Shown here piece after piece: positions 10,597 to 22,778 of a stretch of DNA of 64,000 nucleotides. The translations under genes and the position numbers were made by a program. Numbering within the stretch: the stretch's first letter is position 1; every line of letters starts with the position of its first letter. Under the pieces are notes generated by a model. It ran no database searches and was not told where the DNA came from. It saw only the letters and a program-made list of their open reading frames with translations. Source of the DNA: Paenibacillus sp. YPG26 (GTDB taxonomy: Bacteria > Bacillota > Bacilli > Paenibacillales > Paenibacillaceae); assembly GCF_023704175.1 (NCBI RefSeq), contig NZ_CP084530.1, positions 918,501 to 982,500 on the forward strand. The letters run 5' to 3'.

Positions 10597-11124
10597 ATGG
10601 AAGCAGAACAAGCGGGCAGCCTGCAGTCCGGTGACGGAATCCGGTTCCGTCCCATGACGCTTGAGGATATTCCGGATGTGATGATTATTGAACATGAATC
10701 CTTTACGCTGCCCTGGACGGAGAATGCGTTCCACAGCGAGATGACGCAGAATCATTTTGCCAAATATATCATTATGGAGAAGGACGGAGTTCCGATCGGT
10801 TATGCGGGCATGTGGACGGTGGTGGATGAAGCCCATGTGACCAATATTGCGGTGCGCTCCGCTTACCGCGGCCAGCATCTGGGGGAGAGGCTAATGCGGG
10901 AGATGATGCTTCTGGCCGGGAGAATAGGGATGACCAGGATGACCCTGGAAGCCCGTGTCTCCAACACGGTGGCCCAATCCCTGTACGGCAAGCTTGGCTT
11001 CCGCCCGGTAGGACTGCGCAAAGGCTATTATTCAGACAATCAGGAGGATGCGCTGATTATGTGGTGCGATCTGCCTGATGATATTGTTGCCCAACATGGG
11101 GAAGGAAGCGAATGGGACTTATGA
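10597..11124 (+). CDS. rimI: RimI-type ribosomal S18 alanine N-acetyltransferase
   Basis: GNAT-fold acetyltransferase expected to acetylate the N-terminus of ribosomal protein S18. The 175 residues carry the family start IRFRPMTLEDIPDVMIIEHE, the acetyl-CoA loop RSAYRGQHLGERLM and the C-terminal SLYGKLGFRPVGLRKGYY. ATG 10597 is set by AGGGGGGAA upstream; the frame extends further 5' through GC-rich tsaB sequence without a usable start. Its 3' end overlaps tsaD by 13 bp, so the two are probably translationally coupled. Confidence 0.93.
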   Translation: MEAEQAGSLQSGDGIRFRPMTLEDIPDVMIIEHESFTLPWTENAFHSEMTQNHFAKYIIMEKDGVPIGYAGMWTVVDEAHVTNIAVRSAYRGQHLGERLMREMMLLAGRIGMTRMTLEARVSNTVAQSLYGKLGFRPVGLRKGYYSDNQEDALIMWCDLPDDIVAQHGEGSEWDL

Positions 11125-12170
11125 GTGGATTGGATACAAAGTTAGTAGAGGACAGCTTCATTCTGGCTGTGGAGACAAGCTGTGACGAGACTTCCGTATC
11201 GGTCGTCAAGAACGGGCGGGAAGTGCTCTCCAACCTCATTTTCAGCCAGATCGAGACACACAAAGCCTTCGGCGGCGTCGTACCTGAAGTCGCCTCCCGC
11301 AAACATGTCGAGAGTATTACTATGATGCTTCAGGAGGCTGTTCAGCAGTCGGGCATCTCACCAGACAAGCTCTCCGCGGTTGCCGTGACACAGGGCCCTG
11401 GTCTGGTGGGCGCACTGCTTGTAGGGATTATGGCGGCGAAGAGTCTGGCCTTTGCACTCGACAAGCCTTTGATAGGCACCCATCATATTGCGGGGCATAT
11501 CTATGCGAACCGTCTGGTTCAGGAGATCTCGTATCCAAGCATCGCGCTGGTCGTATCCGGCGGGCATACAGAGCTTGTCCATATGGAGAGCGAAGGGCAG
11601 TTCAAATTAATCGGCCGGACACGGGATGATGCGGTAGGAGAGGCTTATGATAAAGTTGCTCGGGCGCTGGGCTTCCCTTATCCGGGTGGTCCTTATGTTG
11701 ACCGGCTTGCGCATGAGGCTGAGAATTCGGCAGAGCTTCCCCGTTCCTGGCTTGAGCCGGACTCGTTTGACTTTAGCTTCAGCGGTCTCAAGTCCGCGGT
11801 GCTGAATGTGCTCAACCAGACAAAGATGCGGGGCGAGACCCCGGATATTCCCGCCATTGCCCGCGGGTTCCAGGAATCGGTCATTGAGGTGTTGGTCGAG
11901 AAAGCGATCCGGGCCATGCGGTTAACCGGAGCTGCCGAGCTTCTGCTCTGCGGGGGAGTGGCGGCGAACCGGGGGCTGCGTGAGGCCTTGACCGCACGCT
12001 GTGAACGTGAAGGCATCACGCTGAGAATTCCGCCGCTTGCGTATTGCACGGATAATGCGGCTATGATCGGTGCGGCTGCTTACTTGAAGCTTGTGCATGG
12101 CGAGTTCGCACCGCAGACCATGAAGGCGGAGCCGGGACTATCGCTCGAAGAATGGTCGGTCGGCAATTAA
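11112..12170 (+). CDS. tsaD: TsaD, tRNA A37 threonylcarbamoyltransferase
   Basis: Catalytic subunit that moves the threonylcarbamoyl group from its adenylate to A37 of tRNA (formerly Gcp). Metal ligands are in HHIAGH (near residue 120), nucleotide binding in VVSGGHTEL and GVAANRGLR, and the N-terminus is the family ILAVETSCDETSVSVV. The length of 352 is slightly above the usual 340. ATG 11112 has GGAAGG 5 nt upstream inside rimI. Last gene of the operon; a terminator follows at 12190. Confidence 0.96.
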   Translation: MGLMSGLDTKLVEDSFILAVETSCDETSVSVVKNGREVLSNLIFSQIETHKAFGGVVPEVASRKHVESITMMLQEAVQQSGISPDKLSAVAVTQGPGLVGALLVGIMAAKSLAFALDKPLIGTHHIAGHIYANRLVQEISYPSIALVVSGGHTELVHMESEGQFKLIGRTRDDAVGEAYDKVARALGFPYPGGPYVDRLAHEAENSAELPRSWLEPDSFDFSFSGLKSAVLNVLNQTKMRGETPDIPAIARGFQESVIEVLVEKAIRAMRLTGAAELLLCGGVAANRGLREALTARCEREGITLRIPPLAYCTDNAAMIGAAAYLKLVHGEFAPQTMKAEPGLSLEEWSVGN

Positions 12171-19218: not shown

Positions 19219-20139
19219 TCAAAAAATATCCATACTCAGATACCGCTCACCTGTGTCGGGAGCGATGCATAATATTCGTCTGCCGCGGCCGAGCTTCTTG
19301 GCCAGCTGTACTGCGGTCCAGACGGTTGCCCCGGCGGAAGGACCAACCAGAATACCTTCCCGGCTGGCAAGCAGGCGGGTGGTCTCCAGTGCGTCTTCAT
19401 CGGCAACCTGTACAATCTCATCATACACATCTGTATTTAGAATGGAAGGGACGAAGCCGGGGCTTGTTCCCACGAGCTTATGGGGCCCGGGTATTCCGCC
19501 GGATAGAACAGGAGATCCCTTGGGTTCCACCACATAGATCTGAATATCCGGGAGATGCTCACGCAGAACCTCACCTGTTCCCGTGATCGTACCGCCGGTT
19601 CCGGATGAGGCCACGAAGACATCCAGGCGGCCTTCCATCTGTTCAATAATCTCAAGCGCTGTAGTTCCGCGGTGAGCATCGGGATTGGCCGGGTTCTCGA
19701 ACTGCTGAGGGATGAAGCTGCCCGGAATTTGCGCCTGCAGCTCCAGCGCTTTGGCAATCGCTCCAGGCATCCGCTCGGCTGCAGGGGTCAACACAACTTC
19801 TGCCCCGTAGGCTCTCAGAATGTTGATTCGTTCCGCTGTCATATTGTCAGGCATGATCAGGATCGCACGGTAGCCCTTAGCGGCTGCGTTCATCGCCAGC
19901 CCGATTCCGGTATTCCCACTGGTCGGCTCGATCAGCGTCGAACCCGGGACAAGATGGCCTTCCTGTTCAGCCCTTGTAATCATATGATAAGCTGCCCGGT
20001 CTTTCACGCTTCGGCTTGGATTGAAATATTCAAGCTTCACGTAGACCTCGGCATCTTCCGGCCCGACAAGCCGGTTCAATCTGACTGCGGGGGTGTCCCC
20101 GATCAGATCAGTAATGCTATCTACCACTTTATTGGACAA
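19219..20139 (-). CDS. cysK: Cysteine synthase (O-acetylserine sulfhydrylase)
   Basis: PLP enzyme that makes cysteine from O-acetylserine and sulfide. The PLP lysine is in SRSVKDRAA, the substrate loop is PTSGNTGIGLA, the phosphate-binding loop is SGTGGTITGTG, and the C-terminal Ser is in VGPSAGA. The family SVKDR motif is preceded by PSR instead of the usual PGG. TTG 20139 is chosen: AAAGGCGGG lies 6 nt upstream and the 306-residue product has the family length, while the frame continues to 20214 without homology. CysK versus CysM cannot be fully separated. Confidence 0.92.
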   Translation of the reverse strand: MSNKVVDSITDLIGDTPAVRLNRLVGPEDAEVYVKLEYFNPSRSVKDRAAYHMITRAEQEGHLVPGSTLIEPTSGNTGIGLAMNAAAKGYRAILIMPDNMTAERINILRAYGAEVVLTPAAERMPGAIAKALELQAQIPGSFIPQQFENPANPDAHRGTTALEIIEQMEGRLDVFVASSGTGGTITGTGEVLREHLPDIQIYVVEPKGSPVLSGGIPGPHKLVGTSPGFVPSILNTDVYDEIVQVADEDALETTRLLASREGILVGPSAGATVWTAVQLAKKLGRGRRILCIAPDTGERYLSMDIF

Positions 20140-20259
20140 GAAGAGCCCGCCTTTCGCAGCATGGATTTGTATTATTGTATCGGTTCCGGAACAAGCATTC
20201 AAGCATGCCGCCAAAAGACTTCCTGGATCTCTATGGGGCTAAAGTCATAGTTGTCAAGT

Positions 20260-20508
20260 TGTGGACAAGGTTATCCACAGTTTACCTGAATAATGTGTAT
20301 AAAGTGATGAAACCCTTACCCAGTCTCCTTTTATATGAATCATGAAAAAGGGGACAATCTTTTCACAATCTTCTGTGTGTTTTGTGGATAATGTGGATAA
20401 TTAAGTGGATAAGAACCGTTACACTGCATAAAGTGGCTAAAAAGACGACCTGAGAGGCCGTCTGAGTAAGGACTAAATTCTTAATATTGTGGATAATCCT
20501 GTGCATAA
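20260..20508. promoter_or_regulatory. DnaA-box cluster (six perfect boxes)
   Basis: Six exact matches to TTATNCACA or its complement lie in 240 bp: 20271-20279 (forward), and 20294-20302, 20383-20391, 20392-20400, 20488-20496, 20500-20508 (reverse). One-mismatch boxes lie at 20260-20268 and 20404-20412. The two boxes at 20383 and 20392 abut with no gap. An AT-rich run follows at 20533-20567. It fills the gap between cysK and the 3' end of ydiF. Chance occurrence of this density is very unlikely; DnaA binding itself is inferred. Confidence 0.85.
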
Positions 20509-20574
20509 TTGAGGCTGATCTCAGCGGTAGTGTTAAAAAAATATTTTGGATATGAATTGAATTTAACAATTCCC

Positions 20575-22524
20575 TCAGGCAAGAAGCTCTTCCCATTCTG
20601 AATAGGCCTCGGCCAGCTGGGCCTTCAGTCCATCTATACGGGACTGCCGTTCTTGTACGGCCGCGTAATCCTGATAGACTTCCGGCTCAGCAAGCTCCGC
20701 TTCAAGTCCCGCGATGCTATCCTCATGCTGCGCAATCAGCTGCTCCAGCTGTTCAATCCGGCGCTGCCGGCTGCGTTCTTCACGTCTGGCCTGCTTGTCG
20801 GCTTCATATGATCTCGCACCTGTATTCTCTTCAGGAATATCTTCATCCGTTTTCTTGGATAAGGCAGGCTTCGCGGCAGCTTTCTCCTGGGCAAGCTCGG
20901 CCAGCTCCTGCTTCTTCTCCAGGTAATCATCATAATTGCCCAAATAGGGTTCGGCCCCGCCCGGATGAAGCTCAATAATCCGCTCGGCCATCTTGTTGAG
21001 GAAGTAACGGTCATGAGAGATGAACAGCAGGGTTCCGTCGTACTCCATCAAGGCCGCTTCCAGAACCTCCTTACTGTATAAATCCAGGTGGTTGGTCGGC
21101 TCATCCAGGATGAGCAGATTCGCCTTCAGCAGCATTAACTTGGCCAGAGCTACCCGGGCCTTCTCGCCCCCGCTTAAGGCGGCGATCCGCTTCAGAACAT
21201 CCTCGCCGCTGAATAGAAAGTTGCCCAGAACGCTGCGGATTCGGGCTTCCTCAATATGCGGAAAGGCACTCCATAGTTCTTCAAGGACCGTATTCTTCGG
21301 GTTAAGATGGGTCTGTTCCTGGTCATAATAACCCAGCTTGACCTTGGTTCCCCAGTTCAGCCGACCGGAAGTCATCTTCAGGTCACCGGTTAAGATCTTG
21401 AGCAGCGTGGATTTGCCGATCCCGTTGGGTCCTATGAGAGCCACCGTCTCTCCGCGGCGCAGGTCAAAGCTTACGTTTTGGAACAGGGGCTTTTCTTTTT
21501 CTTTGTCAAAAGAATAGGCGAGCTCATCCACCTGCAGCACTTCCTTGCCGGACATAATCCCGGCTTCGAAGGAGAAGCTCGCTTTCTTCAGATCGCCAAG
21601 AGGACGTTCCATAACCTCCATCCGATCCAGGGCTTTGCGCCGGCTTTGGGCACGCTTGGTGGTTGAGGCACGGACAATATTTTTCTGAATGAAATCCTCA
21701 AGTCTTGCAATCTCGTCCTGCTGCTTCTCATACTGCTTCATCTGACTCTCGTACTCGGCAGCCTTGAGCTCAATATACCGGCTGTAGTTGCCCGTATATT
21801 TCCGGGATTGGTGACGTTCAATCTCCACAATAGCAGTGACCAGACGATCCAGGAAATAACGGTCATGCGAGACAATCAGCAGCGCGCCGGAGTAGCTGCG
21901 AAGGTAATCCTCCAGCCAGGTCAGTGTCTGAATATCCAGATGGTTGGTCGGCTCATCGAGCATAAGGAGGTCAGGAGCTTGAAGCAGGATTCGGGCCAGG
22001 GCGAGGCGGGTCTTCTGTCCACCGCTGAGAGTCGAGATCAGGGTGTCGGGCGGGAACGAGCCAAAGCCCATACCGTGAAGGACACTGCGAATCCGGGTCT
22101 CCATTTCATATCCGCCATGATCCTTGAACCAGTCGGACTTCCGGGCATAACGCTCCAGCAGGTCTTCGAATGCCTTCGCGTTCCCGGCGGTTTCGGGATT
22201 GGCGATCTCAAGCTCCATTCGGCGGAGTTCCGCTTCTGCCTCAATTAGAGGACTGAATACATACAGCATTTCCTCCCAGATGGTGCGTTCCGATTGCAGT
22301 CCGCTGTTCTGGGCGAGGTAGCCGATGGTGGTCTCCTTGGCCTTGAAGATTTGTCCGCTGTCGTAAGATATTTCCCCAGCCAGGATCTGCAGCAGCGTGG
22401 ATTTGCCAGCGCCATTAACACCCACGAGTCCGATGCGGTCACGCTCGAGAATCTGAAGGCCGATGCCCTCAAGTATATTTGTGGTGCCATAGGATTTTCT
22501 GATATCTGTTGCTTGAAGCAGCAT
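20575..22524 (-). CDS. ydiF: ABC-F family ATPase, YdiF type
   Basis: Duplicated soluble ABC ATPase without membrane domains, acting on the ribosome in translation or quality control. Each half has a Walker A (GVNGAGKSTLLQ, GPNGIGKSTLLK), signature (LSGGQKTRLAL, LSGGEKARVAL) and Walker B (LLMLDEPTNHLD, LLILDEPTNHLD). The linker is Lys/Arg-rich, and the last about 110 residues form a Glu/Arg/Gln coiled coil like Uup. ATG 22524 begins the family sequence MLLQATDIRKSYG; an upstream ATG at 22542 overlaps the GGAGG. Position next to moaC and groESL matches Bacillus ydiF. Confidence 0.94.
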   Translation of the reverse strand: MLLQATDIRKSYGTTNILEGIGLQILERDRIGLVGVNGAGKSTLLQILAGEISYDSGQIFKAKETTIGYLAQNSGLQSERTIWEEMLYVFSPLIEAEAELRRMELEIANPETAGNAKAFEDLLERYARKSDWFKDHGGYEMETRIRSVLHGMGFGSFPPDTLISTLSGGQKTRLALARILLQAPDLLMLDEPTNHLDIQTLTWLEDYLRSYSGALLIVSHDRYFLDRLVTAIVEIERHQSRKYTGNYSRYIELKAAEYESQMKQYEKQQDEIARLEDFIQKNIVRASTTKRAQSRRKALDRMEVMERPLGDLKKASFSFEAGIMSGKEVLQVDELAYSFDKEKEKPLFQNVSFDLRRGETVALIGPNGIGKSTLLKILTGDLKMTSGRLNWGTKVKLGYYDQEQTHLNPKNTVLEELWSAFPHIEEARIRSVLGNFLFSGEDVLKRIAALSGGEKARVALAKLMLLKANLLILDEPTNHLDLYSKEVLEAALMEYDGTLLFISHDRYFLNKMAERIIELHPGGAEPYLGNYDDYLEKKQELAELAQEKAAAKPALSKKTDEDIPEENTGARSYEADKQARREERSRQRRIEQLEQLIAQHEDSIAGLEAELAEPEVYQDYAAVQERQSRIDGLKAQLAEAYSEWEELLA

Positions 22525-22778
22525 AACTTGTATATCCTCCATATCTATAAGAAACCTGGCCTGAAGTCAGGCGTTGTTAACCCTAGTGTACATGAAACAT
22601 CCCTCAAATGCACCGCCATGCAGCAGATGTATGAATATAGCCATGAAGGCCTTCCGTATCAAGTTTTCATTTTCACAGAACAGTGATAAACTAAAGAGAG
22701 ATATGATGGTGTATGGGCTGGAATTAATATGGTTAGATTGTAACCGGTACCCTAACCTGAAAGAAGGGTGATGTTCAC

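Follow-up and report, generated by a model that had tools for sequence, protein, structure and literature searches.

In Bacillus subtilis, the DNA downstream of gcp (tsaD) and downstream of ydiF is DnaA-binding region 4, defined in vitro and containing 10 predicted DnaA boxes (PMC4447404). Its apparent Kd is 0.15 μM for ATP-DnaA and 0.33 μM for ADP-DnaA, and at 55 nM protein 16-fold more of this DNA was recovered with ATP-DnaA (PMC4447404). Deletion of six clusters outside oriC led to early initiation, an effect that was strong only with all six gone (PMC5295017 and PMC13220808, both citing Okumura 2012), and at some B. subtilis clusters DnaA behaves as a transcription factor (PMC4447404). The clusters have been called analogous to the datA locus of Escherichia coli, or similar to it in function (PMC5742627, PMC4585315). 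The datA locus requires IHF and promotes ATP hydrolysis by DnaA (PMC5295017, PMC5742627), whereas B. subtilis is devoid of IHF, Hda and datA/DARS loci (PMC13220808). With respect to box arrangement, E. coli DnaA prefers pairs of boxes 2–3 bp apart (PMC11317965). Within the open-licence literature, DnaA, gcp and ydiF occurred together only in PMC4447404, and no title or opening of an abstract described phased or conserved DnaA-box clusters outside oriC, nor any such cluster in Paenibacillus. The element described below bears on the question of how initiation is restrained in Gram-positive bacteria, which do so without Hda, SeqA, datA or DARS.

The window, that is, the whole 64-kb stretch of the Paenibacillus sp. 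YPG26 genome analyzed here (C1:918501–982500), contains 9 perfect TTATNCACA sites, against a mean of 1.69 (sd 1.23, largest 5) in 100 shuffles. Six of these nine lie at 20271–20508 and two one-mismatch boxes, TTGTCCACA at 20260 and TTATCCACT at 20404, complete the cluster, which therefore holds 6 perfect and 2 one-mismatch boxes in 249 bp (20260–20508, or C1:938760–939008). One pair of boxes is abutting (20383–20391 and 20392–20400), and the DNA of the cluster is AT-rich (38% GC vs 50% for the window). The site scan thus bore out the initial annotation, which had described six perfect and two near-perfect boxes, with one abutting pair, within 250 bp.

The complete genome (one contig, 3,966,665 bp) has 171 perfect TTATNCACA sites. 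When all of them were counted and ranked per 250 bp, as the initial annotation had proposed, the cluster came first, oriC included, with 6 boxes and no equal. The next-densest stretches held 4 (at C1:3084216–3084315 and, just before dnaA, at C1:3966302–3966520), followed by 3 at C1:3960263–3960319. Since the genome mean is 0.011 sites per 250 bp, the presence of six boxes together is far beyond chance. The cluster was also rightly placed outside oriC; dnaA is located at C1:25–1332 (TIGR00362), and hence the distance between the two is 0.94 Mb.

By aligning clusters from relatives on box C, D or A (50 chosen clusters entered the larger consensus), we could resolve the element into three modules, A–A′, B0–B–C and E–D–F–CTTGACA, which are rigid inside and joined by variable spacers. 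The outer box of the first module, A (TTATGCACA, 20500–20508, minus strand), and box A′ (TTATCCACA, 20488–20496, minus), 12 bp from it, were both found by the site scan and in the consensus, which for A was the A-anchored one of 50 clusters. In the second module, the one-mismatch box B0 (20404–20412, minus), recognized from the consensus, stands 12 bp before box B (TTATCCACA, 20392–20400, minus, from the site scan); its TATCCAC was conserved at ≥90% in 12 aligned clusters and slightly less in the 50. Box B abuts box C (TTATCCACA, 20383–20391, minus), the anchor of our spacing analysis. The third module comprises box E (TTATACACA, 20294–20302, minus), which is a weaker box in many relatives; box D (TTATCCACA, 20271–20279, plus), 23 bp from E and opposite in orientation to the other boxes; the one-mismatch box F (20260–20268, minus), 11 bp past D; and the heptamer CTTGACA (20252–20258, minus), 21 bp past the start of D.

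The internal offsets were shared by the aligned clusters: 12 bp for A–A′, 12 for B0–B, 9 for B–C, 23 for E–D and 11 for D–F, with CTTGACA at D+21. Boxes and CTTGACA stood out in the alignments, whereas most of the intervening DNA did not, except that many rows showed a weaker TGAAAA..TATCCCC-like stretch between C and E. The conserved region was bounded by A and, at the opposite end, by CTTGACA(AA). At the position of box F (D+11), a perfect TTGTNCACA was present in 74 of 100 distinct clusters, namely those with clear architecture. Box E is offset from C by about half a helical turn, and for this reason what we propose is a fixed phase, not a single face shared by all boxes. The A–A′ and B0–B pairs, 3 bp apart, and the D–F pair, 2 bp apart, resemble the double boxes of E. 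coli, but in YPG26 each pair is built into a more extensive phased array as one of its modules, and D–F is inverted.

CTTGACA(AA), the edge of the conserved region, is not a DnaA box. Among the 100 distinct clusters, CTTGACA was perfect at D+21 in 71 and had one mismatch in 8 more. The exact D–F–CTTGACA string (28 positions) was found in 132 of 388 family genomes, belonging to 3 of 19 genera and never more than once per genome, while the backward control gave no match. We considered the heptamer as a promoter element, given its likeness to a −35 hexamer, and discarded this possibility: no clear −10 followed it in 80 clusters, where the mean match was 1.9–2.1 of 6 at spacers of 15–18, against 1.2–2.1 at other spacers. 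A Spo0A site was discarded as well. A scan of the cluster for the fuller Spo0A consensus, which we take to be TTTGTCRAA, gave no site even with one mismatch allowed. The reverse complement of the heptamer, TTTGTCAAG, fits the Spo0A site TG[TA]CGAA, as published in a table of PMC4285127, at only 5 of 7 positions, a weak likeness.

As for the genes nearby, whose names come from homology to known operons and from reading the sequences (except for tsaD, TIGR03723, and dnaA, TIGR00362), the element adjoins ydiF (20575–22542, minus), an ABC-F ATPase gene named by homology and position. On the other side lies a gene (19219–20214, minus) whose product, judging from its sequence, is presumably cysteine synthase-like; this cysM-like gene separates the element from tsaD in the YPG26 lineage. 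The tsaD gene (11112–12170, plus; TIGR03723 over the cut-off at C1:929660–930592) is 8.1 kb from the element, so that the 3′ ends of tsaD (gcp) and ydiF do enclose the cluster, with further genes intervening towards tsaD. In 20000–20700 an Rfam search gave no match up to an E-value of 1 and a terminator scan found nothing; by eye, a candidate hairpin can be discerned past ydiF at about 20434–20465 on the minus strand.

The initial annotation had placed tsaD about 8 kb away, in agreement with the ends of tsaD (12170) and ydiF (20575), and had concluded that tsaD had moved. The separation is real, but it is better described as an insertion of genes between tsaD and the cluster than as a movement of tsaD. 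Among the 80 named relatives considered below, tsaD was found in 70 loci, at 144–9266 bp from the cluster (median 2767), and in 13 of them the gap was below 1 kb. A short gap with convergent tsaD and ydiF is the B. subtilis arrangement and therefore looks ancestral, implying that the 8.1 kb in the window reflects insertion; tsaD is the probable ancestral neighbor of the element.

These observations agree with the link to the B. subtilis gcp/ydiF region that had been drawn in the initial annotation: the same gene pair flanks DnaA-binding region 4 there (PMC4447404), the consensus box is the same, and many boxes occur within ~300 bp. The two loci differ in the 8.1 kb of other genes between cluster and tsaD in YPG26 and in the box layout, which in Paenibacillaceae appears to be its own. 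DnaA binding, and the phenotype upon deletion together with sister clusters, are those of B. subtilis. Locations were also compared as fractions of the replichore, computed for B. subtilis from the size of its genome. The B. subtilis cluster lies at ~0.3 (position from PMC4447404) and that of YPG26 at 0.47, both outside oriC.

In all 44 single-contig genomes picked, ydiF was at 0.25–0.55 of half the genome from dnaA (mean 0.39, with lengths rounded; 0.47 in YPG26). An element beside ydiF is consequently copied at around the first half of replication, the timing expected of a titration site. This conserved distance may nonetheless reflect general gene order alone, and the element is not always beside ydiF.

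To what extent is the cluster retained in Paenibacillaceae? We compared the regions past ydiF across the family, a check suggested with the initial annotation. The named relatives were the best 80 of 329 loci (by title, 78 from Paenibacillus, 1 from Fontibacillus and 1 from Neobacillus), the nearest being from Paenibacillus, such as that of P. zeisoli with 93% in YdiF; on these grounds the family was taken as Paenibacillaceae and the class as Bacilli. All 80 had at least three perfect boxes in 300 bp near ydiF, and in 78 the cluster started within 600 bp of the ydiF stop (the distance was 2.1 kb in L048 and 4.8 kb in L057). Outside the clusters, the same loci contained 42 boxes in 1.67 Mb, or 0.025 per kb. 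Some of the titles deserve a remark. Records bearing the name Paenibacillus sp. DMB5 contain a pair of distinct ydiF loci (L084 and L085), both accompanied by a DnaA-box cluster of their own, perhaps because the assembly is mixed; L104, titled Neobacillus mesonae, has a Paenibacillus-like ydiF and cluster, and its title may be wrong.

In some other members of the family no cluster could be recognized near ydiF. Of 40 further loci, read up to 6 kb past ydiF, 26 had at least three perfect boxes in ~300 bp, starting 24 bp to 5.7 kb from ydiF; four of the remaining 14 had 1–2 boxes (L114, L123, L124 and L145) and ten had none. The pattern of the abutting pair matched in 20 of 36 chosen genomes, some of them among the loci missed by the three-box rule, and no perfect abutting pair was present in the other 16. 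No perfect box was seen past ydiF in G050 (genus g12; 6 kb) or, within 1.5 kb, in both g17 genomes and 2 of 10 g13 genomes. The g11 genome G049 gave no YdiF match at the cut-offs used and no abutting pair.

The element did not strictly follow its neighbors. In the g18 genomes G118 and G109 (L367, L368) its distances to ydiF and tsaD were 6.3 and 2.5 kb, respectively; in G206, also g18 (L371), they were 6.9 and 0.4 kb. In G092 (g4; L369) ydiF was 12 kb away from it. In three g3 genomes the cluster was on the contig of tsaD, approximately 4.4, 4.3 and 2.9 kb past that gene (L362–L364), with ydiF on another contig; no perfect box occurred in 8.2 and 9.3 kb past ydiF (L365, L366), nor in 6 kb (L118). 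In these three g3 genomes (L362–L366, L118) it is the whole tsaE–tsaB–rimI–tsaD block that is on a separate contig from ydiF, which, in the two genomes read further, was still accompanied by moaC–mog–tatC–groESL. More generally, the tsaD-side neighbor of the element differs among relatives, and the shortest gaps leave the element between the 3′ ends of two convergent genes.

From the g3, g18 and g4 placements it follows that the element depends on neither tsaD nor ydiF; it stands free of both and has persisted despite insertions to its left or right. The earlier proposal of conservation through rearrangement was supported, inasmuch as the cluster is retained in many relatives while the adjoining genes change. 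Its fixation to the ydiF 3′ end applied to 78 of the 80 named close relatives and failed in g3, where the cluster is on the tsaD side, and in g18 and G092, where it is at least 6 kb from ydiF.

To compare spacers, we searched for a pattern consisting of B–C, a free gap and D, with C–D distances of 97–127 permitted. This pattern occurred in 206 of 394 family genomes, representing 13 of 19 genera, and the backward control gave none; the exact string was absent from the other 188 genomes. Among the 150 matches listed of the 206, which are not independent because the genomes are related, C–D was either 101–104 (24) or 111–113 (126), with no other value, and both classes coexisted within g1, g13 and g14. 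The full architecture could be fitted in 120 of 179 loci, some of which are the same site twice. With a perfect D, the C–D distance in these loci was 101–104 in 42 cases, 111–113 in 70 and 115 in one (L112, in which a second D, with one mismatch, is present at 103); where D had one mismatch, the distance was 100 (1), 103 (2) or 111–113 (4). A clear A–A′ doublet (up to one mismatch) was present in 94 of the 120 loci, and in these A–C was 117–118 (8), 126–130 (74), 138–139 (5) or 147–148 (7), with nothing between. A–C was counted only in such loci because the values 108, 115, 119, 140 and 146 rest on a poor doublet and could be swaps of A and A′ (12 bp). Within the family, therefore, spacer lengths seem quantised, at steps of approximately 10 bp.

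Spacer changes were also counted on a tree of YdiF, for which we used 93 of the 139 loci that had a YdiF protein (in the others the score revealed no clear architecture). On this tree there were 12 spacer changes of at least 3 bp: 8, 9, 10 and 11 for C–D and 8, 8, 8, 9, 12, 13, 18 and 3 for A–C. Eleven of the 12 were thus of 8–13 or 18 bp, and one was of 3 bp. Changes counted in this way fit whole-turn steps, although the events are too few to be decisive on their own and steps of 8 bp match only loosely.

Outside the family, the exact B–C–D string was found in 24 of 361 genomes (398 were searched, 37 of them from the family), in five cases just past tsaD and otherwise elsewhere. The C–D values were 98–103, 108–109, 111, 113 and 121, of which 108–109 were the commonest, mostly from one genus at another locus. 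Given this spread over 98–121, the two C–D bands of Paenibacillaceae are not a class-wide rule; layouts differ in other families. We then read the DNA past tsaD in 90 of 139 non-family genomes (30 returned as loci and 60 selected so as to cover many genera). For five of the 60 (L296, L305, L307, L310 and L312) the presence of the pattern near tsaD was already known, and four of the loci end less than 1 kb past tsaD. Within 1.5 kb of tsaD, 50 of the 90 had at least three perfect boxes in ~300 bp (45 of 85 without the five pre-known loci), 62 had at least two and 28 had fewer; 24 of 36 other sampled families had a locus with at least three boxes past tsaD.

The box spacings in these clusters were periodic. 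Taking one cluster per genus (49 genera), same-strand spacings of 15–170 bp showed a period of 10.8 bp, with R = 0.59 over 175 pairs. With one cluster per family (26), the period was again 10.8 bp and R was 0.57 over 124 pairs, a strength attained by none of 1000 position-randomised sets; the lowest R upon leaving out one family was 0.54. Consecutive pairs only, in the 26 families, gave R = 0.63 over 53 pairs, and exclusion of the five pre-known loci gave R = 0.61 over 102 pairs, in both cases with 0 of 1000 randomised sets as strong. Opposite-strand pairs were also periodic. As a further control, 40 motifs of the same composition were scanned in the same DNA with the true boxes masked, at up to two mismatches so as to collect enough pairs. 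Over 24 families they reached at most R = 0.30 (median 0.19), while the true boxes gave 0.54 (perfect) and 0.52 (one mismatch). Families share ancestry and are not fully independent, yet their layouts differ from one another.

Taken together, these data lead us to favor, with a probability of roughly 0.7, a locus for titration of DnaA and timing of initiation, which would act as a helically phased, cooperative DnaA assembly and would be orthologous in position to the B. subtilis gcp–ydiF cluster. The element would bind DnaA away from oriC. As the spacers differ by about whole helical turns, the bound DnaA molecules would be kept in a fixed rotational relation, and from this phased arrangement they might assemble cooperatively into one nucleoprotein structure. 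At each replication the locus could then soak up DnaA, probably mainly ATP-DnaA, so that premature re-initiation would be held back. We infer the cooperative, rotationally fixed complex from the spacing of the A–A′, B0–B and D–F pairs and from the one-turn rule in evolution; binding of DnaA in its own cell, an effect on timing and the titration role itself are likewise deduced and presumed. The phased architecture favors a defined complex over a loose sink. What is new here is the phased three-module architecture and its spread, the B. subtilis-type cluster being of a kind already known. The element is kept through much of Paenibacillaceae and its spacers seem to follow a one-turn rule, while the box architecture provides a sequence signature for finding and comparing such loci across species.

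The phasing recalls oriC, whose DnaA boxes are helically phased; a similar rule is read for the YPG26 element from its evolution. Could the element then be a relic or secondary origin, as the density of its boxes, two of them abutting, and its AT-richness (38% GC vs 50%) might suggest? We regard this as very improbable, because dnaA and a dnaN-like gene are 0.94 Mb away and because 19950–20850 contains no DnaA-trio-like run (at least four trinucleotides), whereas one was found in the dnaA–dnaN gap by the same rule. It is just as hard to believe that the boxes have no function and are chance remnants of some ancient duplication or AT-rich repeat. Nothing speaks for this beyond the sequence that related genomes share, and against it boxes and CTTGACA stand out from most of the intervening DNA in aligned clusters, spacer lengths are quantised, and the density of boxes outside the clusters is as low as 0.025 per kb. 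A local transcription switch, by which DnaA would control the adjoining gene (cysM-like here, tsaD or ydiF elsewhere) in the manner of the B. subtilis sda promoter, deserves more attention and appears unlikely. The cysM-like gene of YPG26 begins just past the element on the same strand, CTTGACA resembles a −35 hexamer and DnaA does regulate transcription at some B. subtilis clusters (PMC4447404). Nevertheless, the tsaD-side neighbor varies, down to arrangements in which only convergent 3′ ends flank the element, the 80 clusters lack a clear −10 hexamer past CTTGACA, and a promoter scan of 20050–20700 returned 2 weak sites vs 0.9 expected. The strongest sign that the role is not tied to a neighbor is that the element stays when tsaD or ydiF is elsewhere.

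A fixed phased architecture over ~260 bp would also suit a datA- or DARS-like site, altering the nucleotide state of DnaA (by hydrolysis or reactivation) through a defined complex instead of titrating it. We deem this improbable, while acknowledging that sequence cannot separate it from titration; we know of no nucleotide-state effect of clusters of the B. subtilis type. In its favor, the B. subtilis counterpart prefers ATP-DnaA (PMC4447404) and the B. subtilis clusters have been likened to datA (PMC5742627, PMC4585315); against it, B. subtilis has no IHF, Hda or datA/DARS loci (PMC13220808). Like E. coli datA, the element is a group of DnaA boxes remote from oriC that would restrain initiation, but locus and neighbors are unrelated, and datA depends on IHF, which B. 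subtilis does not have (PMC13220808). Sites of the datA/DARS kind combine defined boxes with binding of IHF (and Fis). A bolder idea, which we put forward tentatively and consider rather doubtful, is that across Bacilli the tsaD–ydiF element is not a passive sink but a scaffold that would force DnaA into one rotationally fixed, origin-like complex with an output of its own, for instance a switch in the nucleotide state of DnaA or the recruitment of a partner via the CTTGACA edge. Gram-positive bacteria would then possess an equivalent of datA/DARS that needs no IHF and is retained whatever the neighboring genes.

Some further observations concern DnaA and its boxes elsewhere in the genomes. 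The second non-oriC cluster of YPG26 (C1:3084216–3084315; L330:3216–3315), with four perfect boxes in 100 bp, is flanked by genes that, from reading, appear ferredoxin-NADP reductase-like and ATP-grasp-like. The DnaA boxes that are normally located between rpmH and dnaA seem split in YPG26 (L329, C1:3956001–3966665; L328): three are at C1:3960263–3960319, towards yidC/jag, and the other four immediately precede dnaA; between the two groups, reading of the ORFs indicated a gntR–gntP–gntK-like operon and a secreted repeat protein. Finally, genome G196 (genus g2) has two full-length DnaA matches over the family cut-off, at C1:180161–181474 and 2974275–2975582.
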